This document shows positions 4,675-60,652 of a stretch of 64,000 bases of DNA, in pieces. Positions within the stretch are counted from its first letter, which is position 1; each line of letters starts with the position of its first letter. A program made the position numbers and the translations under genes. The notes below the pieces were generated by a model, which searched no databases, was not told where the DNA came from, and worked only from the letters and a program-made list of their open reading frames with translations. Source of the DNA: a virus; the IMG/VR virus record IMGVR_UViG_3300042565_001021, positions 1 to 64,000 of that record; one strand, written 5' to 3'.

Positions 4675-6261
4675 TTACTCCTCAAACAGTGATGGGTTAA
4701 GTATTGGTTTCGTTGGTTCTGCTTTTACTTTGACTACCTTCTCTATGCCTAACATACCTTCAAACTCAAACGTTTCGTGGAAGAACGTGTCTGGATTGAT
4801 AAGGTCGTCTCCTTTGTTACCACGTGTTCCAATGATGCGAGCAAAGTATTTCTTGTAGTGCTCGATTAATGCTAATGCTTTACCTTTGTCGCTCGTTGCG
4901 AAGATGGCATCAATGACTTCGGCGAAGTAATGTAACTCGTATTGCCTAAATCTCTTGCCTTCCATGTAAGACGCATTCATCATCTCTGGGCGTTCGCCGT
5001 TACTGTATCGACGATTAGCTTCCTGCACCGCTTCGATATGACGATGAACGTTGTGTCCCATCAGGATAGCATAGCTGAAACTATCCCAACTGGTGCGTCC
5101 TTCTTTCCCTATCTTATTTAGGTCGCCGGGTCCATAGATACAAATATCTTTGATCGTGCAGCGTTCGCTGACTGGACTTTCTTCGAAAACAGGGAAGATG
5201 CCATCTTGTAATACTGCGTCACGGAAGCGTCGCGTGTCCGTTGAATACTTTTTGTCATCGACGCTTGGTGCCATTCTGTATGTCCATTTGTCATTGTGCG
5301 TGTATTCGTTTGCGACATAGACTTGACCGTTAGCAGTAGCTAAGAATGGACTAGCGCAGTCAAAGCTCACTGTAAAGTTTTCGTTGTGATACTTGCGTAC
5401 CGCATTTTGGATGTCAGTGAGCAACACCGCCCATTCTAGCTTACTGGTTCCTAGGAAGTGCATCCAATCGTGTTTGCCTTTCTCAAGTAATCCGTCGTGC
5501 CGTAGAGCTACTAGCCTTCGAAGGATTAGCTCAACGTCGCACATATTCTGTCCTCCCATCGACCAACCTTCAAATGGTTGTTCGTATTGCTTAGGATCGC
5601 AGTATTTCTTCATCCTGTCATACCAATCGTCTGCCTGTGCGTGTGTCTCGCCTTGTAGAACATTTAGGAATTTACAGTTCCCGTTACGATTGCGCATAAA
5701 GAATTCGTTGTTGATGTCTGTTGCTGCTACCGCTTCAGCGTAAGTGCTTACACCTGTTGCTGCTGCGCCTGCTGGGCTGCGGGCGACCCAGGCCGGAATA
5801 TCAAGGATCATTCCGTAGTCCATGTATGCGTCCATCCAGCTCAATACTTGCGCACGTTTTAACGATGCCTTAGGGCAGTTGATATTTTTCCAATCGCCTT
5901 CCCACACGCCTTTACCGATCTGGAATCCTCCGGAGTCGCCTACTACGAACGAGTATTTGCGATCACGATTGCGAACCATGTCTTCTTTCGGTGCCACTTT
6001 GTTAACATCGAGCTCGGCGTGTCCTGCCGAATACAAAGCCCACTTGTAAGGGAAGTATGCTTCTTCTTTGTTCAGCCAGTTCAGACCTTCTACTCCTGTT
6101 TCAAAGTCAGCAGGTACGCGAGCAGGATCAACGTAGTTTGGATCGAATCGTTGCTTACCTACGTAAGTCGCATAGAACCCACTAAGGGCCGGCAGGAAGA
6201 CAGCCCATCGGCTGCGCCCGTCTGCTCCTACCTGCTTAGATGTTAAGTCATCTCTTAGCAT
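4675..6261 (-). CDS. dpdA: TGT/DpdA-like 7-deazaguanine transglycosylase
   Basis: 528 residues. GDSGGFQIG (Asp109 onward) matches the DSGGFQ signature of tRNA-guanine transglycosylase, followed by VLQGETHAQ (about residue 202), GWSMGG (about 232) and [10 protein letters not shown], in the family's order. A region with two Cys ([10 protein letters not shown]) and GHNVHRH may correspond to the zinc site, but the usual CxCxxC is not intact. Long, divergent TGT homologues in phages are DpdA proteins, which put 7-deazaguanines into phage DNA. folE upstream supports this. No QueC/D/E-type genes are in the window. Substrate (DNA or tRNA) is inferred. Confidence 0.75.
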
Positions 6262-11931: not shown

Positions 11932-13149
11932 TTATCGTCGGCCACCAAGGTCGGTGACCGGTTCCTTTAACCATTCTATGCGGTTCTTTATTTTAGCAGC
12001 AAGTGCTGGATCTTTATCGACTACTTGTTCGTATCGTTGTTCTAACTTAGCAATCTTCTCGTTAGTTATTTGATCCATTTTATGATAAGCACCACCTAAC
12101 CCACCAACAGTGCCAACAGCAATTGCAGTAGCAGCTATATTTTGTTTCCATCCTTCTTTAATCTCGTCTTCAGTAAACACTGGTGGATTTTGCTTGGTCT
12201 GTATCTTACGTTTCAGTGCTTCACGACCTTTAACACGATCCCACATGCCGCGGACTTTACCTTTAGCAATCTCACCTTTTACTTCGTCTGGTTGAGTTCG
12301 AAGATCGCGCAGTCTCTTTGCTTGTAGATTTGCTACTGTTAGGTCGTCGATCTCGCGAACAATCTTCTCTCCGTTATCATCATACTCTCTGTGTATTGAA
12401 GTTAAGTCTTTTAAACGGGAATCCCATGGAGCAAACACTTCGTTTGGTTGTACAGCAATCATATCACCTGCTGCCCAGTTCCTTAGCTTGCCACCGTTTA
12501 GTTTAATGTGACACAGTCCGGTCTCACCAATGCGCTTAAACAGTCCATACGATACATTATCTGGATGATCGTTAGCAACAATTGCTACCTGCTGACCTAC
12601 GAGTTTCTCTACACCTTTGTTGAATATGCTTCCTTGCTTGTTAGGGATGCTCTTAGTCATTGAGGCTTCTGGCACCGGAATACCTTTGTCATACCCTTCT
12701 ACATAGTATGCGTCGTATACCTTAAACCCTTGCTTCTTGTAATGTTCAACTGCTTTCTTGAGTGCGTCAACTTCGTCGCCTTTAACACGGATGAACTTTT
12801 GAATTTCCTCGTTTCTTTCTGACACTGCTACGGCGTTAGGATTAGATATCGTAACAGAGATGCGATGATAGGCTGTGTTAGATTCGTTTATAGCAGTTCC
12901 TTCATTCTCGATCTCTTCTGTAAACCCCTTTAAGGCCATTGTAGCTTTAATCTTTTCAAACGGCAAAGTAACAGGAATACGCTTCTTCTCTTGCCCTACT
13001 TCCATCTCGAAAGCGTTTTCTCCAGGACCCGTCTTCCATAGGTAGATCTTAGATGCCATGCCAGTTGGTTTATCTAGTGTAGGACCTTTGCGGAAAATAG
13101 CAATTAGCTTGCCTTCGCTTTCTTGTAAAAAGAGTTCAGTGACAAACAT
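11932..13149 (-). CDS. putative internal virion protein
   Basis: 405 residues, function unknown. The N-terminus MFVTELFLQE ends in a hydrophobic-x-Glu site and resembles T4 capsid-targeting peptides, which the gp21 protease cuts after such a Glu. The middle is mixed alpha/beta; the C-terminal third is basic, then has a short hydrophobic Ala/Gly stretch (AATAIAVGTVGGLGGAY). Last gene of a long minus-strand block of virion proteins. RBS AAGGA lies 11 bases upstream of the ATG. Confidence 0.65.
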   Translation of the reverse strand: MFVTELFLQESEGKLIAIFRKGPTLDKPTGMASKIYLWKTGPGENAFEMEVGQEKKRIPVTLPFEKIKATMALKGFTEEIENEGTAINESNTAYHRISVTISNPNAVAVSERNEEIQKFIRVKGDEVDALKKAVEHYKKQGFKVYDAYYVEGYDKGIPVPEASMTKSIPNKQGSIFNKGVEKLVGQQVAIVANDHPDNVSYGLFKRIGETGLCHIKLNGGKLRNWAAGDMIAVQPNEVFAPWDSRLKDLTSIHREYDDNGEKIVREIDDLTVANLQAKRLRDLRTQPDEVKGEIAKGKVRGMWDRVKGREALKRKIQTKQNPPVFTEDEIKEGWKQNIAATAIAVGTVGGLGGAYHKMDQITNEKIAKLEQRYEQVVDKDPALAAKIKNRIEWLKEPVTDLGGRR

Positions 13150-37095: not shown

Positions 37096-37671
37096 TTACC
37101 GGATCCCTGCTGCTACCTGTATATCAATCAAGTCGCGGCTTGTTTTAGCCGCCGGCTTAACTTTAACTCCAGATATTGCTCTTAGGTGGTTTAGCTCGAT
37201 GCTTTCTTCTAAGCTCTCGCCTGTTTTTATTTCGTACTCAGCCGACGAATTGATAATCTTCTTAAACAAGTTCTCTTCGGTAACTGGAAGACGATCAGCA
37301 CCCTTATAGTAAGTAAATGACCAGTCTTCTAACTCTTGCTCAGTGAGATTCATCATATCAACTAGCATCGTGTAAATGTTTTTAGCTGCGTTTGTTTTAC
37401 GCTGAAGTTCAATGAAGACCATGTAATTACCGTCAGATGTTTCACCGCTACTTACGTCTGCGTCTAGCACCCAGTCATAGCTCTTTTCAATAAAGTTAAC
37501 TAGATCGTCGGCTGGCTCTTTACCTAGCACAGTAAAGCCTACAACAACAATGTCTTTATCCTCGCCCATTTTACTGCGGAACTCGTCAATGGACATGATT
37601 GGATTCACTACCCTTGCTAGGTCTCCGTATTCAACTCCCTCTGAGACTAACTTAGAACTGTTGCTGCGCAT
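37096..37671 (-). CDS. conserved T4-like phage protein
   Basis: 191 residues, alpha/beta, unrecognised function. I chose ATG 37671 (MRSNSSKLVSEGVEYGDLAR); the frame stays open to 37854 but that part lies over the preceding gene and has no protein-like sequence. It overlaps the upstream gene by 20 bases. Similar unnamed proteins occur next to structural genes in T4-like cyanophages. Confidence 0.7.
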   Translation of the reverse strand: MRSNSSKLVSEGVEYGDLARVVNPIMSIDEFRSKMGEDKDIVVVGFTVLGKEPADDLVNFIEKSYDWVLDADVSSGETSDGNYMVFIELQRKTNAAKNIYTMLVDMMNLTEQELEDWSFTYYKGADRLPVTEENLFKKIINSSAEYEIKTGESLEESIELNHLRAISGVKVKPAAKTSRDLIDIQVAAGIR

Positions 37672-38248
37672 TTGGTGGCCCTCCCATCTGTTGTTGTGCT
37701 GGATCCATTGGTGCTCCACCCATATTACCTGCCATTGGGTCCATTCCCTGATCTTGCGTTTCGCTCTGATCGGCTTCCTCTTCGTAAGCCTCCTCGACAT
37801 CATCGATATCAAGCTTCTCATTTTCAACTTCAATGGATCCTTGATGGATCTCATTGATAAGCTTCTTGGGCATAGTAATAGTCACTAGCCAAATTGGCAC
37901 TGTTTTAGTTTTGGCCATCTTAGTGCCTGGGCGGAAGTCGTCTTCGGACTTTGGCTTTACTGGATACTCGAGCTCGTCTTTCTTGTATAGCACTTCGCAG
38001 TTGTAGTTTAGCAACTGCTCTCCGCCCCTTGGGTCAGGCATTTTAGAATGAGGCCACATAAAAGTACAAGTCACGAAGTATTTCTCGTACTCTGGGCCAG
38101 CGACTAGTTCACCTAGTTTCCAGTTACGGAAAGCGTACACATCTAGCTCGTCGATCACGCGTTCAAAGTTCAATAGAGTATCCAAAGCTGAATCGCTTAG
38201 GTAAATCTCTTTTACGTTTTCAAGGGCACTTTTAATACTCTGTGGCAT
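37652..38248 (-). CDS. conserved phage protein with acidic, Met/Gln-rich tail
   Basis: 198 residues. The N-terminal domain is alpha/beta (MPQSIKSALENVKEIYLSDS); from about residue 150 the chain is acidic and then rich in Met, Pro, Gly and Gln (QDQGMDPMAGNMGGAPMD), probably disordered. Likely virion-associated by analogy with T4-like cyanophages; function unknown. A late-type box lies at 38275-38282. Confidence 0.65.
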   Translation of the reverse strand: MPQSIKSALENVKEIYLSDSALDTLLNFERVIDELDVYAFRNWKLGELVAGPEYEKYFVTCTFMWPHSKMPDPRGGEQLLNYNCEVLYKKDELEYPVKPKSEDDFRPGTKMAKTKTVPIWLVTITMPKKLINEIHQGSIEVENEKLDIDDVEEAYEEEADQSETQDQGMDPMAGNMGGAPMDPAQQQMGGPPNAQQQF

Positions 38249-38273: not shown

Positions 38274-39317
38274 TTATTTAGCCTTTTTAGCGATGTTTTC
38301 TTTGTAGAAAGCCTCTTGATTAAAGACAGTCGAGTTCCACACTACCAGGTTCTTTAACGCTTTTTTAGTAGTTAAGTCCTCTAGCTTACGCAATGCTATG
38401 CTTACGTCGTTTCCAATGAGCCACAGGTATTTCCCAGTTTCCTTCTCGATCGCAGCAACAGATTCGGGATCAGTTAGCATTTTAGTCAGGGCTTGTCGTA
38501 ATGCCTTTGTGTTAGGGTTGTTCTTGCTTACCCAAAGACTCTTTTGGAGTACGTCTCGGTAATGCTTAACAAGAAGATACATCTCATAAAACTCGCCGGA
38601 CGGATAAACTCCCCACTTTGCTTTGAACACTTCTTCGAACACTGGATAGCTATCAGCAACGACTTTACCTGTCTTTAAATTCAGCACACCAGCAGAGTAC
38701 CATAGCACAAACTCTGGCTTCATGTAATGCTTCATGTACGTCGCCGGTGTTTCGCGAGTTACGTTTAGCTCGCCGCGCAGGTAAGCTAATCCTCTTTCGT
38801 TGCCTTTCATACCTTTAACATACTTGACTTTTTCGTTGTAGCATTTCTTGTACTCTTCTATTCTTGCTTTAGGTCCGCACGCCATCATTGTAATGGATAG
38901 CATGTCAGGATTCGTACCAGACGAATAAGCAAACTTTACCCCGTCGAACGGATTTGAGTCCTTACGGTGCCCGACGACGATAGTCAGATTCTGTAGGCCA
39001 ATGGGATCGTAATCTCTGTATTCGTAATCAACCTGGTGGATAAGGTAAGATTCGCCGTTTCCGCCGTGCCCTAGCATAATTGTCTTTGAGTCTTTTTGTA
39101 GTTCATTGTGAAACTTGTTAAACCCTGGGATATCGTTTGCTCCGGGGATGTGCACTAGTACTATCTTCTCGCCTAGTGCTTTCTCTAGTTCCTTTGCTAT
39201 AATGCTTCCCCATACACTTGTTCCTTGTCCTGGACTTTGCGGGATGATTAGCTTATAATCTGCTACTGCGAACGCGCTTAGTAATGCCAGTGCTAGTGCT
39301 AAAATATACTTTTTCAT
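38274..39317 (-). CDS. tctC: TctC/Bug-family periplasmic solute-binding protein
   Basis: 347 residues. Signal peptide MKKYILALALALLSAFAVAD (cleavage near residue 19). The mature part begins YKLIIPQSPGQGTSVWGSII followed by LGEKIVLVHIPGANDIPGFN, close to the TctC opening (VPxxPGGxxD... VVxNxPGAGG). It would bind a carboxylate in the periplasm for the TctA channel encoded two genes upstream. AGGAG precedes the ATG. Bug/TctC proteins are very numerous in Betaproteobacteria, so a host origin is likely. Confidence 0.8.
   Translation of the reverse strand: MKKYILALALALLSAFAVADYKLIIPQSPGQGTSVWGSIIAKELEKALGEKIVLVHIPGANDIPGFNKFHNELQKDSKTIMLGHGGNGESYLIHQVDYEYRDYDPIGLQNLTIVVGHRKDSNPFDGVKFAYSSGTNPDMLSITMMACGPKARIEEYKKCYNEKVKYVKGMKGNERGLAYLRGELNVTRETPATYMKHYMKPEFVLWYSAGVLNLKTGKVVADSYPVFEEVFKAKWGVYPSGEFYEMYLLVKHYRDVLQKSLWVSKNNPNTKALRQALTKMLTDPESVAAIEKETGKYLWLIGNDVSIALRKLEDLTTKKALKNLVVWNSTVFNQEAFYKENIAKKAK
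38275..38282 (-). promoter_or_regulatory. late-type promoter box for 37652-38248
   Basis: GCTAAATA on the minus strand, 26 bases before the ATG, overlapping the end of the tctC-like gene. Confidence 0.45.
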
Positions 39318-39328
39318 TTCCTCTCCTT

Positions 39329-40213
39329 TTAATTATACGTTGCTAGTACTCTTTCAGCCTTTGTTGTAATTGTGTTTTTTGCTGCCAATGGGTCATGCTG
39401 CACGTCCACTAGCTGTGCAGCATGCCAGGCCTCTAAGTTTCTAGTTGCATACTCGGTCTGTTCAACTGATAGCGGTCCTATTGCTGCTTCTAAAGTTTCT
39501 AAGAAGCGATCAGTGATTCCAAAACGCAAAGCTGAGTACGGTAGCTCTATAGCGTCTGAGATGTACGTGCTTGCCTTTGCTTCAAAGTATTCAGTTGTGT
39601 GCCACGAATAGTTCAGCATGGAATACAACATTAAAGTTTTTACATCAGCGTTGTCTGTATCTTGTAAGAATGTCAATAACTCAGTAGCTTTTGCAGGCGG
39701 CACAAGAGTAACTAAATGGTCTGCACACATTTGCCTTCGGCTTAATATTATGTTCTGATCGTAGGCCACTCTGTTTGTACAATTTGTAAGCACGTACTTA
39801 GAGAATCCATTTATCTTACATACAATCGAATCGACCGGAGTACAAGTAATGTCAATGATCTTAGCTGTCGGAAATATTTCGCGGTATACTGGGATATTAT
39901 GGTAATCGTGTGAAATTTCTACCACCGGAGTCAGGTCCCTTGCACGGGGATCTACTGATTTTGTAGTCTCTTCCAACATACATGCCCTTAGGTCTGCTGC
40001 CGTTGGGCTCGCATACTTTTGCCCCAATGGGGCACTTATCCAGAGCCCCGTATGAATCAATATTCCTTGAGAATTAGCTTCTCCATGCAAATCTAAGGGT
40101 ACATCAGCATAGTTTGCATCGAGTAACTTTTGTAACAGACTCCCTACAAATCTTCCGCCGGCTCCATGACGATACATAACAATGTAATACTGCCTATCAA
40201 AAACACTAGACAT
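39329..40213 (-). CDS. P-loop/sulfotransferase-like protein
   Basis: 294 residues. The N-terminus YYIVMYRHGAGGRFVGSLLQ places a Gly-rich turn after a beta strand as in sulfotransferase-like P-loop proteins, but the GKS/T signature is missing, so the call is tentative. It overlaps the tctA stop by 8 bases, hence co-translated within the transporter operon. Confidence 0.5.
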   Translation of the reverse strand: MSSVFDRQYYIVMYRHGAGGRFVGSLLQKLLDANYADVPLDLHGEANSQGILIHTGLWISAPLGQKYASPTAADLRACMLEETTKSVDPRARDLTPVVEISHDYHNIPVYREIFPTAKIIDITCTPVDSIVCKINGFSKYVLTNCTNRVAYDQNIILSRRQMCADHLVTLVPPAKATELLTFLQDTDNADVKTLMLYSMLNYSWHTTEYFEAKASTYISDAIELPYSALRFGITDRFLETLEAAIGPLSVEQTEYATRNLEAWHAAQLVDVQHDPLAAKNTITTKAERVLATYN

Positions 40214-41654
40214 ACTTTACTTCTCCCTGGTGATAAAATAGCCCGTACACTAGTGCACAGACAGTTACTAATATAGTTATCCCGCTTATGGGCCTGGTTA
40301 GAATATCAGTTAGTCCATACAGAGAGGAGTATTGAATGAAGCTGTTCTCTATCCTGTGTGCCAGAACAAACCCAATGATAAACGCTGCCCTGCTTAGTTT
40401 TAGATATCGCATCCCTATGCCAGCTGCGCAACAGATAGCAAACATAACGTAGTCTTCCCAGTATCCAGTGTATTGAACGCACGACCAGAGTATCAGAGCA
40501 AACAAGATCCAAAAGTAATACTTAAACGGAATCAGCGTGATCAGCGTAGCCCAGCGGATAAAGAACATAGCAATAACAAATGTCAGACCTAATGCCCACA
40601 AGTAGGAGCCAAACAGCACATCAAAGAACTTTGTGTCGTTTAGCAATGATGGCGTCCCTAACTCTAAGCCTACCATTACAAACAAGCTCATAATGATTGC
40701 CTCGAACGGCGCAGCAGGGATTCCAAATAAGACCGTAGGAACATACGCTGTTGCCTTCTGTGCGTTGTTAGCACCTTCGCAGCCTATTACACCTTTAACA
40801 TTACCTGTGCCGAACGGTATCTTTTCGTGTTTGTTAAATGCCACGGTCTGTCCATACGACAGCCAATCAACTATGTTGCCGCCCACTCCGGGAAGCATTC
40901 CGAATACCCCACCAACTGCTCCACCGCGTAACCCGTCCCATCTGTGTATCCAGCTGTCTATAAACCCTTGCCGGATCTGTCCCCAAATGTGCCTTGACTT
41001 TATCTTCAGGAATTCTATCTTTACACGGTACGACTCTAACAGCTCCGGAATGGCTAAGATTCCGGCTAGAACTGGCATGATTTGAACGCCGTCTCGGAGG
41101 TAATACCAGCCAAAAGTAAACCGTTCTGCTCCACTTTCGTTCTGCCCTATTAACCCGACTAATATGCCAATCCCTAGCGCAATAATACCTCTGAACCAAT
41201 ATTCGCTGTTAACAAACACGACACACACCATTGCCAGAATAAGCAGGGCTAAGATCTCTGGGATTGCTATGTGTAACACAGCTTGTCCGTAGAATGGAAG
41301 GAACGCAAAGACTAACACTCCCCATAGCAGCCCGTTAACAGTAGAGGTAGTTATTGCTGCGCTCAGCGCTCTTGCGCCTTCTCCGCGTTTAGCCATTGGA
41401 AACCCGTCTACCATAGTAGCGGCTGATCCGGAGGCCCCGGGTATGTTCATCATTATGCTTGAGAACGAGTCTCCAATTGTGACAGACACAACAATTGCCG
41501 TCGTGAATATAACAAGTAGGTAAGGGTCTGCTCTGAATACATCAATGAAGCTGTAAATCGTAAGCAGAGCTGTAGCAGCACCAGCGACAGGTATGATACC
41601 AAAAAGGAAGCCGTACAGCGTTCCACCTAGTAAGGCAAGTAAGTATTCTATCAT
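40206..41654 (-). CDS. tctA: TctA-family tricarboxylate transporter, large subunit
   Basis: 482 residues, about 10-12 membrane segments. Both TctA half-signatures are present: NIPGASGSAATMVDGFPMAK with RGEGARAL, and GMLPGVGGNIVDW followed by FGTGNVKGVIGCEGANNAQK and VPTVLFGIP. In bacteria TctA with TctB and periplasmic TctC takes up citrate or related carboxylates using an ion gradient. TctB (small, 4 membrane segments) is not encoded next to it. Overlaps of 4 and 8 bases with its neighbours show a tight operon. Confidence 0.9.
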   Translation of the reverse strand: MIEYLLALLGGTLYGFLFGIIPVAGAATALLTIYSFIDVFRADPYLLVIFTTAIVVSVTIGDSFSSIMMNIPGASGSAATMVDGFPMAKRGEGARALSAAITTSTVNGLLWGVLVFAFLPFYGQAVLHIAIPEILALLILAMVCVVFVNSEYWFRGIIALGIGILVGLIGQNESGAERFTFGWYYLRDGVQIMPVLAGILAIPELLESYRVKIEFLKIKSRHIWGQIRQGFIDSWIHRWDGLRGGAVGGVFGMLPGVGGNIVDWLSYGQTVAFNKHEKIPFGTGNVKGVIGCEGANNAQKATAYVPTVLFGIPAAPFEAIIMSLFVMVGLELGTPSLLNDTKFFDVLFGSYLWALGLTFVIAMFFIRWATLITLIPFKYYFWILFALILWSCVQYTGYWEDYVMFAICCAAGIGMRYLKLSRAAFIIGFVLAHRIENSFIQYSSLYGLTDILTRPISGITILVTVCALVYGLFYHQGEVKYV

Positions 41655-42253
41655 TTAATGAGGGTGATTAGGATATCGGGCTTCTGTAACGAAACTTCAA
41701 CCTTGGCTCCAATTTCTTTCTCTATCCACTCTGAACTATAGTGCGACCAAGTTGCGTTACGCTTATGCGCAAATTCTAGTATCTTTTGATTTTGTTTAGT
41801 AATCTCGCATAACATACCGGCGCTATCCTTGTAAGCAGAATAGTTAGGGTAGGTTATATTAAACCCGCCGGCTTCGTGCCACCAGGCATAGCTAGCCATG
41901 TCATGACGATATACAAGTATAATCCAATCGTCCGGAAAAATTTTTTCAATGACATCAAATCGGTATGGCCAGTCGTGACTCTTAAGCAATTTAGTGCCGC
42001 CCTTAGTTGCCCAAGGAAGATCGAGATACTGATGTAGGAAGGTAACATTAAACTTCTCTAATGCAGAGTCATATTCCATTCCTCGACCAAAGTACACACC
42101 TTTGTGCCCTTTAAAAGATTTAATGTCGTAGTTGCGACCTTCTATTCTATCGCTTGTGTTAAATCCTAGGATCTGTTCTATGTCTTGTGCTATTGCTGAC
42201 CAATGTGAACCGGGCACACCAGTAAAGAAGATTTTGTCAGGTAATGTAATCAT
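41651..42253 (-). CDS. P-loop/sulfotransferase-like protein
   Basis: 200 residues. IFFTGVPGSHWSAIAQDIEQ has the position and spacing of a nucleotide- or PAPS-binding loop, and KLLKSHDWPYRFDVIEKIFP with IILVYRHDMASYAWWHEAGG follows the layout of sulfotransferase-like proteins (R-D/H after a strand). Similar unnamed proteins with FTGVPGS exist in cyanophages. First gene of the tctA/tctC operon. A late box CTAAATAC lies only 3 bases before its ATG. Confidence 0.55.
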   Translation of the reverse strand: MITLPDKIFFTGVPGSHWSAIAQDIEQILGFNTSDRIEGRNYDIKSFKGHKGVYFGRGMEYDSALEKFNVTFLHQYLDLPWATKGGTKLLKSHDWPYRFDVIEKIFPDDWIILVYRHDMASYAWWHEAGGFNITYPNYSAYKDSAGMLCEITKQNQKILEFAHKRNATWSHYSSEWIEKEIGAKVEVSLQKPDILITLIK

Positions 42254-42282: not shown

Positions 42283-42804
42283 ATGAAAAACCAACTATTC
42301 CTCAATGAGTACTTCGCAACTGAATGGAAACCAGATATAGAAAAATACAAATACTCGGGGTTATCGTTAATTGACCAGATACAGCCAGACGAGTGGGTTC
42401 TTGATGTAGGATGTGGCTATAATCCTTTTAAAGGAAAGATTAAGAACCTTGTCGGCATTGATCCGGCAAATCAAAACGCCGACGTAATAACAACCATTGA
42501 AGGTTACAAGACTGACAAAAGATTCGACGTAGCTTTCTGTTTAGGTAGCATTAACTTTGGCGACTCTGGCGAGATCTATCAACAAATAAAGAAGGTTACT
42601 TCTTTATTAACCTCTAAGGGTCGAATCTACTGGCGGTGTAACCCAGGACGGCAAGATCACGGAACAGAAGGGTGTACGAAAATACAATTCTTCAATTGGA
42701 CCACGACGTGGCACTATTACTTTGCTGCTGCGTCAGGGTTTACTGTTGTCGAGGTAAAAGAGGACTCAGGTAATCGTTTATACGCTGAGTGGATTTTAAA
42801 ATAA
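42283..42804 (+). CDS. class I SAM-dependent methyltransferase-like protein
   Basis: 173 residues. Motif I VLDVGCGYNPFKG, motif II-like VGIDPANQN and FDVAFCLGSINFGD followed by LLTSKGRIYWRCNPG match the Rossmann methyltransferase fold. The substrate is unknown; the size and lack of a DNA-target motif (no DPPY) suggest a small molecule, sugar or protein. First gene of the only plus-strand block of non-endonuclease genes. Leaderless by appearance. Confidence 0.75.
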   Translation: MKNQLFLNEYFATEWKPDIEKYKYSGLSLIDQIQPDEWVLDVGCGYNPFKGKIKNLVGIDPANQNADVITTIEGYKTDKRFDVAFCLGSINFGDSGEIYQQIKKVTSLLTSKGRIYWRCNPGRQDHGTEGCTKIQFFNWTTTWHYYFAAASGFTVVEVKEDSGNRLYAEWILK

Positions 42805-42925: not shown

Positions 42926-43711
42926 TTGTCTAAGCGTAAAAGTAACACACGCCGTTCATACTATGACATCGAAGAAACCAACAAGCAACCATTTTACAAA
43001 GGAGTAAAAGCAAACGCAGCAGGCAGCAATGTATTACCGTTTAACACATACGCAACACACCACAAGACTACGGTAACACTATTACCGAAAAGCGATAAGC
43101 AGGCAGAGTATATCAAACTCTTGCTAAACAAATCAAAGACAATCATCTTTGCTACTGGCCCAGCAGGCACAGGCAAAACCATGCTGGCTGTTACCGCAGC
43201 CATTAAAGCATTTAAACATGGCGAGTGCGACAAAATCGTTATTACACGCCCAGCAGTTGAAGTAGATGAAGAGAAACATGGCTTCCTACCAGGAACCTTA
43301 AACGAAAAGATGGCACCGTGGGTCAGACCAATTATTGATGTAATGAAGGATTACTTTACACCTAAAGATATCCAGCTAATGATCGAGGATGAAACCATTG
43401 AAGTTTCACCACTGGCATTTATGCGTGGTCGAACTTTTAAGAACAGTTGGATCATTGCGGACGAGATGCAAAACGCTACCCCAGGGCAGCTAAAGATGCT
43501 ACTAACCAGGATAGGAGAAGATAGTAGAATCATAGTAACGGGAGATACGCAGCAAACAGACAGGAAAGGGGCATCTAACGGTTTAGTAGATTTCCAGAAG
43601 AGGACTAGCGGGGCTACTTTATCGTTTATTAGCGGGGTCGAATTTTCAGGAGAAGATATACAAAGGCACCCAGCAGTAGAGGAAATCCTTAGAATATACG
43701 GAGATCTGTAG
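42926..43711 (+). CDS. phoH: PhoH-like ATPase
   Basis: 261 residues. Walker A ATGPAGTGKTMLA (about residue 76), KIVITRPAVEVDEEKHGFLP, Walker B IIADEMQNATPGQLKMLLTR and VTGDTQQTDRKG are diagnostic for PhoH. PhoH genes are frequent in marine and freshwater T4-like phages; the role is debated (phosphate stress, RNA-linked ATPase). The start codon is TTG, with AAGGAG 9 bases upstream and no ATG alternative near. Confidence 0.95.
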   Translation: MSKRKSNTRRSYYDIEETNKQPFYKGVKANAAGSNVLPFNTYATHHKTTVTLLPKSDKQAEYIKLLLNKSKTIIFATGPAGTGKTMLAVTAAIKAFKHGECDKIVITRPAVEVDEEKHGFLPGTLNEKMAPWVRPIIDVMKDYFTPKDIQLMIEDETIEVSPLAFMRGRTFKNSWIIADEMQNATPGQLKMLLTRIGEDSRIIVTGDTQQTDRKGASNGLVDFQKRTSGATLSFISGVEFSGEDIQRHPAVEEILRIYGDL

Positions 43712-43747: not shown

Positions 43748-44233
43748 ATGGATGTTTTTGGCCCAACTCACTTCTTCACTACATTAGCTCTAATGTATAA
43801 AAACCTGCGATTTATTTTGACCAGGGGTAATACTATTGTCGCTAGATTCTTGCTCTACTTGAGCGCGATTATTTGGTCAGTGGATACCTTGTTTCTCCCG
43901 TCAAGGCATTGGATGATGTTACATGAGTTAATTCGTATCTCACCTAATTTATTAAATGATATAGTGGTTTGGTTCTTACCTCTAGCAGCACTAATTTACG
44001 GAGTTTCTTCGATGATTGTATTGTTAGCAAAAGTTAAGATTCCTTACTTAACAGTAGCTAGCTCATTGACCGGCGCACTAATATGGACCATTGGATTGTC
44101 CTTAGACATTGCAGTTACTTCAGTATTATCCGGGTTCCCGAACAACTTTACAGAAATAGAAGCCACAACAATTACAGCAACACTTCTAGCTTGGTGGTTA
44201 TTAGCTAGGGACTTACTTAAGGTATCGAGATGA
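43748..44233 (+). CDS. four-helix integral membrane protein
   Basis: 161 residues with four hydrophobic segments at about 31-50, 70-95, 100-120 and 130-155 (FLLYLSAIIWSVDTLFL, IVVWFLPLAALIYGVSSMIV). No family recognised. It is followed with 4-base overlap by two further membrane-anchored genes, so the three likely work together. Size and topology resemble TctB, but no TctB signature is visible. Confidence 0.65.
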   Translation: MDVFGPTHFFTTLALMYKNLRFILTRGNTIVARFLLYLSAIIWSVDTLFLPSRHWMMLHELIRISPNLLNDIVVWFLPLAALIYGVSSMIVLLAKVKIPYLTVASSLTGALIWTIGLSLDIAVTSVLSGFPNNFTEIEATTITATLLAWWLLARDLLKVSR

Positions 44234-59461: not shown

Positions 59462-60652
59462 TTACGGCCAGGTCGAAACTACGCTCAATGCAGTACGAGA
59501 CCAAATGTCTGATATTCCGTCGGTCCAGGTTGCAGTACAGTAATAAAGATAGGATGCATCTATTGCAACATCTCCGATTGTGTTGCCAGTTTGTCCTTTT
59601 GACGTAGTAGGTGCAGTTGCTACAAATCCGTCCCCTATCAGCCCAGAGTAACCAGAGACACCAGAGTAACCTGAGGTGCTCGAATAACCTGAATAGCCGC
59701 TTGTTCCTTCTATACCACTAATTCCTGAGTACCCACTTGTTCCATCAATTCCTGAATAGCCGCTTGTTCCGTCTATACCACTAATTCCTGAATAGCCGCT
59801 TGTTCCTGAATAACCAGAGATACCTGACGTACCGCTAGAGCCCGAGTACCCAGAAGTTCCGCTGACCCCCGAATACCCACTCTTTCCGCTTGTTCCTGAC
59901 GCGCCACCTAACCCTGAGTATCCAGAGATTCCGCTTGTTCCAGAGATACCCGAGTAACCGCTTCTGCCTGAGGTACCGCTCTCACCTGAGTAACCAGACG
60001 TACCACTTACTCCTGATTTCCCACTTGCGCCGCTAGACCCCGAATATCCAGAAGTTCCGCTTGTTCCAGAGATGCCTGAGTAACCGCTTCTGCCTGAGGT
60101 ACCGCTCTCACCGCTATAACCCGACCATCCGCTCTTTCCTGAGGTACCACTAATTCCTGAGTAACCTGAGGTACTTTGTCCCGAGATTCCCGAGTAACCA
60201 GAAGAACCACTTAGTCCAGATATGCCGCTGTACCCTGAGGTACCAGAATACCCGCTCTTACCAGACCATCCGCTAGTACCAGAAAGTCCTATCCCGCTAT
60301 GTCCTGAATAACCCGATACTCCTGAGTAGCCGCTTGCGCCGTCTATGCCCGAGTATCCGCTTGTACCGTCTATACCTGAATAACCACTAAGCCCGCCTGG
60401 TTGCCCGCTAACTCCTGAGTATCCACTCGGGCCTGCTACGTTGCTTGAGAACCCAGAATAGCCACTTAGACCACCAGCTTGTCCGCTAACTCCCGAAAAT
60501 CCGCTAGGGCCGACTGCGCCACTATATCCGCTAGTCCCGCCGGCGGTGTATAGTTCAGTGAAGTTTTGGTTGATTTTGTCGAACGACGCCCGTAATGGAT
60601 CGCCGCTGCCATCTGAAGGCACTGTGCCGATATTGATTGTTTGCTTTGCCAT
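59462..60652 (-). CDS. collagen-like tail fibre protein (Gly-Xaa-Ser repeats)
   Basis: 396 residues. The N-terminus INIGTVPSDGSGDPLRASFD then NQNFTELY is the shared fibre attachment motif. From about residue 40 to 335 the chain is an almost pure triplet repeat Gly-Xaa-Ser (GYSGISGTSGKSGWSG), with Tyr frequent at Xaa and Ser nearly fixed, a collagen-like layout lacking proline. The last 60 residues are a globular end (GNTIGDVAIDASYLYYCTAT). It likely forms a trimeric shaft. The start lies in a 13-bp inverted repeat with the late box in its loop. Confidence 0.85.
   Translation of the reverse strand: MAKQTINIGTVPSDGSGDPLRASFDKINQNFTELYTAGGTSGYSGAVGPSGFSGVSGQAGGLSGYSGFSSNVAGPSGYSGVSGQPGGLSGYSGIDGTSGYSGIDGASGYSGVSGYSGHSGIGLSGTSGWSGKSGYSGTSGYSGISGLSGSSGYSGISGQSTSGYSGISGTSGKSGWSGYSGESGTSGRSGYSGISGTSGTSGYSGSSGASGKSGVSGTSGYSGESGTSGRSGYSGISGTSGISGYSGLGGASGTSGKSGYSGVSGTSGYSGSSGTSGISGYSGTSGYSGISGIDGTSGYSGIDGTSGYSGISGIEGTSGYSGYSSTSGYSGVSGYSGLIGDGFVATAPTTSKGQTGNTIGDVAIDASYLYYCTATWTDGISDIWSRTALSVVSTWP
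59640..60540 (-). repeat. tandem Gly-Xaa-Ser coding repeat
   Basis: About 900 bases of 9-base-based direct repeats (codons for Gly-Xaa-Ser). Third codon positions vary between copies, but several blocks recur almost unchanged, for example around 59930-59995 and 60055-60115 (Ser-Gly-Glu-Ser-Gly-Thr-Ser-Gly-Arg...), indicating recent duplication of segments. Confidence 0.8.

Follow-up and report, generated by a model that had tools for sequence, protein, structure and literature searches.

The 64,000-nt stretch of DNA analyzed here (the window) comprises bases 1-64000 of the 155,045-bp IMG/VR virus record IMGVR_UViG_3300042565_001021. It carries an operon encoding TctA, the large membrane subunit of the tripartite tricarboxylate transporters (TTT), together with a solute-binding protein (SBP) of the TctC type, and no TctB was detected in the record. 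The TctA of this pair belongs to a viral clade, the pair is linked to a small set of putative modifying enzymes in many other viral genomes, and it is replaced by other importers in related gene clusters. We propose, with a probability of about one half, that TctA and the SBP form a phage-native, TctB-less importer of the TTT type, which would provide the uptake for a phage cassette that tailors small molecules.

The TctA-SBP Operon

The operon lies on the minus strand and is transcribed in the order 200-aa P-loop-like open reading frame (ORF), tctA, 294-aa ORF, SBP gene. The first ORF overlaps tctA by 4 nt and tctA overlaps the 294-aa ORF by 8 nt, while 11 nt separate the latter from the SBP gene. 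A first-pass annotation, made from the sequence alone, had described an overlapping operon with TctA and a TctC-like gene, and its coordinates proved to be exact. A divergent gene absent from that annotation, on the plus strand, is also part of the module:

38274..39317, minus strand: solute-binding protein of the TctC/Bug fold with a signal peptide, 347 aa, SBP1 family (family profile, AlphaFold model, Foldseek)
39329..40213, minus strand: 294-aa protein between TctA and the SBP (no family match)
40206..41654, minus strand: TctA, large membrane subunit of TTT, 482 aa, 10 hydrophobic segments counted (PF01970)
41651..42253, minus strand: P-loop-like protein of the ST1 family, 200 aa, putatively sulfotransferase-like (conserved motifs, AlphaFold model, Foldseek)
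42283..42804, plus strand: class I methyltransferase-like protein of the MT family, 173 aa, divergent from ST1 (conserved motifs, Pfam via a family member)

The family assignment of TctA is unambiguous. PF01970 was matched with an E-value of 1.7e-83 and 281 bits (cut-off 28.9) over all its positions (1-423 of 423), so that the full length attributed to this protein in the first-pass annotation is confirmed, and the conserved residues are kept, since the protein retains 46 of the 56 columns in which conservation across 30 bacterial TctAs is 85% or more. The protein (482 aa) ends where the TctA domain ends, without any fused TctB part. TctB (PF07331) was reported missing nearby, and this absence extends to the entire 155-kb record and to 29 related viral records (0/30), E. 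coli and other controls being positive, although TctB is poorly conserved and a diverged replacement could escape the PF07331 search. Each of these 29 further records holds exactly one SBP of the same family as that of the window. The small membrane proteins encoded near the pair (43748-44233 in the window and 12531-12884 in a related locus, L001) gave no TctB match. The archaeal TctAs, mostly encoded by stand-alone genes, provide a precedent for a stand-alone TctA, and a role of TctA as the core transporter has been proposed (PMC5898192, PMC5812351). A second, different TctA homolog (E 5.8e-38) occurs in the 316-kb record of the related locus L055 (G009, C1:55502-56788).

The SBP of the window gives by itself no match to the TctC profile PF03401, and no record-wide match to this profile was found in G000. 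Matches were obtained with 5 of 40 relatives of the SBP (best E 2e-4), and the family profile matches BugD (4.5e-4). The 17 best Foldseek matches of the AlphaFold model (pLDDT 93.8) in the PDB are all TctC/Bug proteins (E 8e-11 to 6e-7), including malate-bound MatC, BugD, and TphC. Judging from the family profile and the predicted fold, the protein adopts the TctC/Bug fold and is TctC-like. By inspection, its signal peptide reads MKKYILALALALLSAFAVA, with DY directly after it. The earlier description as a TctC with a signal peptide therefore holds, by way of the family profile and the predicted fold.

The location predicted for the two proteins bears on the suggestion that they might mask a receptor, or that the SBP or TctA might exclude superinfecting phages at the cell surface. 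This idea has its only source in the first-pass annotation. TctA is predicted to lie in the inner membrane and the SBP, from its family and its signal peptide, in the periplasm, so that neither would be exposed outside; that a symporter can stand in for the pair, as described below, fits transport instead. We consider masking extremely improbable.

Recurrence in Viral Genomes and Phylogeny of TctA

The 155-kb record is viral: it encodes a DNA polymerase B, a clamp loader, virion proteins, a ribonucleotide reductase, and a helicase. Pattern scans with the family alignments yielded 525 TctA and 337 SBP related stretches in IMG/VR; 234 loci were analyzed, of which 90 were left at 95% SBP identity (the non-redundant set). 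TctA and the SBP lie on one strand in all 90, the order is TctA then SBP in 88, and the two genes overlap or are at most 20 nt apart in 69. The distances of TctA and those of the SBP are correlated (r 0.64, permutation p 0.0005), as they should be if the two are inherited as a unit. Bacterial contamination or chimeric assembly, which would have made the block bacterial, is ruled out by the presence of the same pair in these 90 distinct viral loci and by the viral hallmark genes. The pair is no recent passenger from bacteria; it is encoded on viral genomes and recurs there, as would auxiliary metabolic genes that may alter host metabolism during infection. No relatives of the SBP were detected among 50,697 sequenced phages, in which the TctA matches are distant (24-30%); close homologs in cultured phages were likewise lacking for MT and were limited to one for ST1 (MH319720, a marine single-cell virus). 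In one locus (L206), the TctA-SBP pair is present twice in tandem, accompanied by OG (described below) and ST1 genes.

In the maximum-likelihood tree of TctA, 31 viral sequences and three copies from metagenome-assembled genomes (MAGs) form a single clade (support 100/100) with a stem of 1.89 changes per column. Its sister group consists of permeases from Gammaproteobacteria that are about 650-680 aa long (L105-L112; support 100/98), one of which (L106) shows a weak C-terminal TctB match (PF07331, 5e-4, below the cut-off). The SBPs adjoining these fusion permeases match the viral SBP profile (1e-28 to 5e-18). The phylogeny, which had been suggested as a means of finding the donor lineage, thus gives a deep viral clade that is sister to bacterial TctA-TctB fusions, and no bacterial donor was found, the closest copies in the genome collections being three MAG contigs nested inside the viral clade.

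Contig 39 of marine bacterium B5-7 (L311-L312), which looks bacterial, carries TctA, SBP, ST1, and MT amid bacterial genes, and the 369 genomes of the class of this bacterium yielded nothing but ordinary TctA and members of the distant fusion clade. Nearby ORFs on this contig resemble a 2-oxoglutarate (2OG) oxygenase and another P-loop protein. On an Omnitrophota MAG contig (L313), a viral-type TctA-SBP pair lies between UbiE-like methyltransferases, beside a B12-binding radical SAM protein; no viral-type TctA was found in 284 other Omnitrophota genomes. A contig labeled Pelagibacter (L086) is probably a mis-binned phage contig, judging from its gene content.

Putative Enzymes Encoded Beside the Pair

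Profiles were built for MT, ST1, OG (2OG-oxygenase-like), and ST2 (a second P-loop family). In ST1, the G-x-P-G-S..S motif and later S-H and R residues are invariant in 43 relatives, and the AlphaFold model has a pLDDT of 94.8. In MT, the D-x-G-C-G and G-S-x-N-F motifs are invariant in 41 relatives, and one family member (L018) exceeds the cut-off of Methyltransf_11 (21.8 vs. 21.2 bits). OG, which has no Pfam match, was called 2OG-oxygenase-like by inspection, from its pattern of H-x-D, H, and R. The 294-aa protein has no Pfam, PHROG, or NCBIfam match, its hhalign comparisons with the P-loop families were negative, and it was not found between TctA and the SBP in the other loci examined; the sole likeness recorded is 21% identity to an ORF of L003. 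Of the two P-loop-like proteins of the first-pass annotation, the 200-aa protein gave a confident model with weak P-loop kinase and sulfotransferase matches, and for the 294-aa protein no relation to the P-loop families was found.

The pairing with sulfotransferase-like proteins, which had been noted as unexplained, is conserved across loci, and not an oddity of one phage. At least one of MT, ST1, and OG is encoded within 3 kb of the pair in 61 of the 62 loci having 3 kb on both sides. The density of MT is 0.32 per kb up to a distance of 1 kb from the pair and 0.006 per kb beyond 4.5 kb, and over these distances the densities of MT, ST1, OG, and ST2 drop about 20- to 50-fold. ST1 accompanies MT in 64 of 79 MT loci. 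An APS kinase (PF01583, 5e-11) is present within 4 kb in 13 of 58 TctA loci, and the cassettes of relatives add a carbamoyltransferase (L068:5825-7309), ferritin-like and amidotransferase-like genes, or, in L364 (4270-5364), a SAM synthetase preceding MT. The APS kinase and the SAM synthetase would supply 3'-phosphoadenosine 5'-phosphosulfate and S-adenosylmethionine (SAM), which fits sulfo- and methyl-transfer.

Exchange of the Proposed Importer

A scan seeded with MT gave 79 loci, of which 63 are non-redundant and 38 full-length. Most often, the core of these loci consists of ST1 and MT in divergent orientation, the arrangement also found in the window. Beside this core, either TctA/SBP1 (21 of the 79) or a lone classical Bug SBP (23 of the 79; PF03401 1.2e-28 in L377:2205-3203, with 22 other MT loci) is present, and never both. 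In the non-redundant set, the counts are 18 with TctA/SBP1, 19 with Bug, 0 with both, and 26 with neither (Fisher p 5e-4). TctA is absent record-wide in 22 of the 23 Bug-type records, many of which are fragments. The two types occupy the same slot: the order is virion genes - SBP - TctA - ST1 / MT - PhoH in L363 and virion genes - Bug - ST1 / MT - PhoH in L333. The corresponding flanks in the window are:

37096..37854, minus strand: virion structural protein, conserved flank of the slot (phrog_13138, 1.5e-27)
37652..38248, minus strand: virion structural protein, conserved flank of the slot (phrog_12928, 1.7e-33; same flank in relatives)
42926..43711, plus strand: PhoH-like ATPase, conserved flank of the slot (PF02562, 2.7e-68; same flank in relatives)

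A third importer is a sodium:solute symporter of the SSF family (PF00474 1.2e-23, L358:6515-7999; family L397-L444). In a sample of 48 loci seeded with SSF (30 non-redundant), MT was found in 42 and ST2 in 45, and TctA, SBP1, and Bug in none. The SSF gene takes the place of the pair in otherwise similar gene orders, CARB-APSK-MT-[TctA-SBP]-ST2 (L031, L298) vs. CARB-APSK-MT-[SSF]-ST2-OG (L358). The search for its subtype, with DUR3, PutP, PanF, and choline transporters as the nearest matches, was uninformative. Between TctA and the SBP, several phages carry a gene for a porin-type beta-barrel outer-membrane protein with a signal peptide (L014:9433-9990, PF13609 1.1e-9; L018:9386-9976; L168; L286), as would be needed for a solute that has to pass the outer membrane as well. 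Replacement by a lone Bug SBP or an SSF symporter, together with the beta-barrel gene, points to uptake, and the importer exchange is the strongest functional clue available. The earlier idea that the phage boosts carboxylate uptake in a TTT-rich host by supplying the channel and the specificity subunit stands to the extent that a TTT-type pair without TctB is most plausibly used for the uptake of a solute, possibly a carboxylate, into a host that may be rich in TTT.

The best PDB match of the lone Bug SBP is Bug27 (5.5e-25), for which quinolinate binding is reported in PMC11452294, and the APS-kinase-like protein of a relative (L350:11218-12030) has a second domain resembling NMN adenylyltransferase. 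The imported compound might accordingly be a precursor of NAD, for example nicotinate or quinolinate, used to restore NAD during infection or against an NAD-depleting defence. We find this very improbable, because closeness within the Bug family is no predictor of the ligand, the pocket sequence of SBP1 differs, the likeness to a nucleotidyltransferase is weak, and the window operon showed no NAD gene.

Another reading is that the pair is a generic helper in carbon and energy supply, a high-affinity organic-acid importer feeding the central metabolism of the host, with neighboring enzymes unrelated in role. The characterized TTT proteins mostly import carboxylates (review PMC5812351); the bacterial relatives of the pair are operons of an SBP and a TctAB fusion, one of which (L105) is flanked by an ORF that resembles, by inspection, a PrpF-type isomerase; and a lone Bug SBP could plug into the TctAB of the host. 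This reading leaves unexplained both the presence of MT, ST, or OG genes beside the importer in nearly all the loci and the fact that non-homologous importers occupy the same place in the cassette, and we regard it as unlikely.

Since part of the sample comes from a single phage lineage whose flanks (PhoH and virion genes) are fixed, the slot might also be a shared hot-spot which gathers cargo, the importers and the modifying enzymes being neighbors only through co-accumulation. MT and ST1 do recombine relative to TctA, their distances tracking those of TctA poorly (r 0.24 for MT and 0.34 for ST1), and many MT loci lack a recognized importer. However, the linkage is maintained when the genes stand in many different orders and when the contig has other flanks, the SSF importer has the same partners, the B5-7 contig holds TctA, SBP, ST1, and MT together, and the drop in density with distance reaches about 50-fold. 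Co-accumulation is therefore judged to be quite improbable.

Possible Function of the Cassette

If the pair is the uptake arm of a tailoring cassette, the secreted SBP would bind a small solute in the periplasm, most likely an organic anion, and hand it to TctA, which would carry it across the inner membrane by means of an ion gradient, either alone or with a TctB borrowed from the host. The imported solute would then be modified or needed by MT, the ST P-loop proteins, and OG, and in relatives by APS kinase, carbamoyltransferase, and SAM synthetase. For the cassette itself, we tentatively put forward a function in the tailoring of small molecules, by methyl, sulfo, hydroxyl, and sometimes carbamoyl groups, with an interchangeable importer (the TctB-less pair, a lone Bug SBP borrowing the host TctAB, or SSF), which would convert an extracellular compound into a product useful for infection.

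Several findings weigh against this interpretation. The likeness of ST1 to sulfotransferases is weak: the Foldseek matches are a mixture of kinases and sulfotransferases (best E 0.036; STF9 with probability 0.89), and there is no Pfam match. The MT of the window stays by itself below the Pfam cut-off (E 0.09 only), and the poor tracking of TctA by MT has been mentioned above. The mutual exclusion of TctA/SBP1 and Bug reaches only p 0.08 on the 38 full-length MT loci, and a Bug SBP is also present in 1 of the 90 TctA loci, so that exclusion is strong and not absolute. The lack of a recognized importer in 26 of the 63 non-redundant MT loci implies that the enzymes are independent of the importer or that the importer was missed. 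Lastly, the small subunit is essential in the related TRAP (tripartite ATP-independent periplasmic) transporters (review PMC5812351), which counts against a TctB-less transporter.

If the proposal is correct, the recurrence of the importer in hundreds of viral stretches and its swapping within one cassette would reflect selection for the import of a specific compound during infection. Phages are already known to carry metabolic enzymes, and a complete, exchangeable importer would go further. The pair would also offer a natural TctB-less TTT system relevant to the role of TctB, and it raises a directly testable question, namely which ligand the phage SBP binds.

Host and Other Features of the Window

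The DNA polymerase of the phage is nearest to those of Sinorhizobium and Agrobacterium jumbo phages (44-48%), a likeness too distant for a host to be named, and the search for tRNA genes, made with a view to the host, found none. Promoter and terminator counts were at or below those in shuffled sequence and were not used; no Rfam RNA was found in the 36-46 kb region. Elsewhere in the window, all on the minus strand, are genes for a collagen-repeat protein (59462-60652; PF01391, 2.6e-35), a 528-aa protein without a Pfam match whose DSGGFQ motif recalls TGT/DpdA enzymes (4675-6261), and a ClpA/B-type AAA unfoldase of 764 aa adjoining a full DnaJ (PF00226, PF01556; 32124-35343).

Comparison with Known Systems

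The listing of tctA among viral genes has precedents. It is listed as a putative viral auxiliary gene, as a "protein domain hit only", on viral contigs from SUP05 single cells, where the gene list also includes a 2OG-Fe(II) oxygenase (PMC4164917), and the scaffold of a marine myovirus has tricarboxylate-transport genes close to norB/nirK (PMC8115048). These cases share with the present pair a TctA-type gene on a phage contig, known there as a domain hit or table entry; the relevant passages of the two papers say nothing of an SBP paired with it, a missing TctB, a viral clade, a cassette, or exchanged importers. The open-access literature searched contained nothing on any of these five points, and the searches on phage TctC, Bug SBPs, and sulfotransferase cassettes gave nothing relevant; the TctB-less clade, the cassette, and the importer exchange were thus not found in this literature. 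Uncultured Caudovirales phages encode lone Bug/TctC proteins (BFVD "PBP2_Bug_TTT", e.g., A0A6J5T247), which resemble SBP1 in being TctC folds encoded on phage genomes and have about 14% identity to it.

The phage pair resembles the TTT systems (TctCBA, TC 2.A.80, with Bug SBPs) in its full-length TctA, its SBP with a TctC fold and a signal peptide, and the adjacency of the genes. Unlike these systems, it lacks TctB in all 30 of the viral records, its order is TctA-SBP and not tctCBA, its SBP falls below the curated TctC cut-off, and its TctA belongs to a separate, deep viral clade. The gammaproteobacterial operons of an SBP and a TctAB-fusion permease (L105-L112) differ from the phage pair in that their permeases, of about 650-680 aa, have a C-terminal TctB-like part, and are like it in that their TctAs form the sister clade and their adjacent SBPs match the viral profile.

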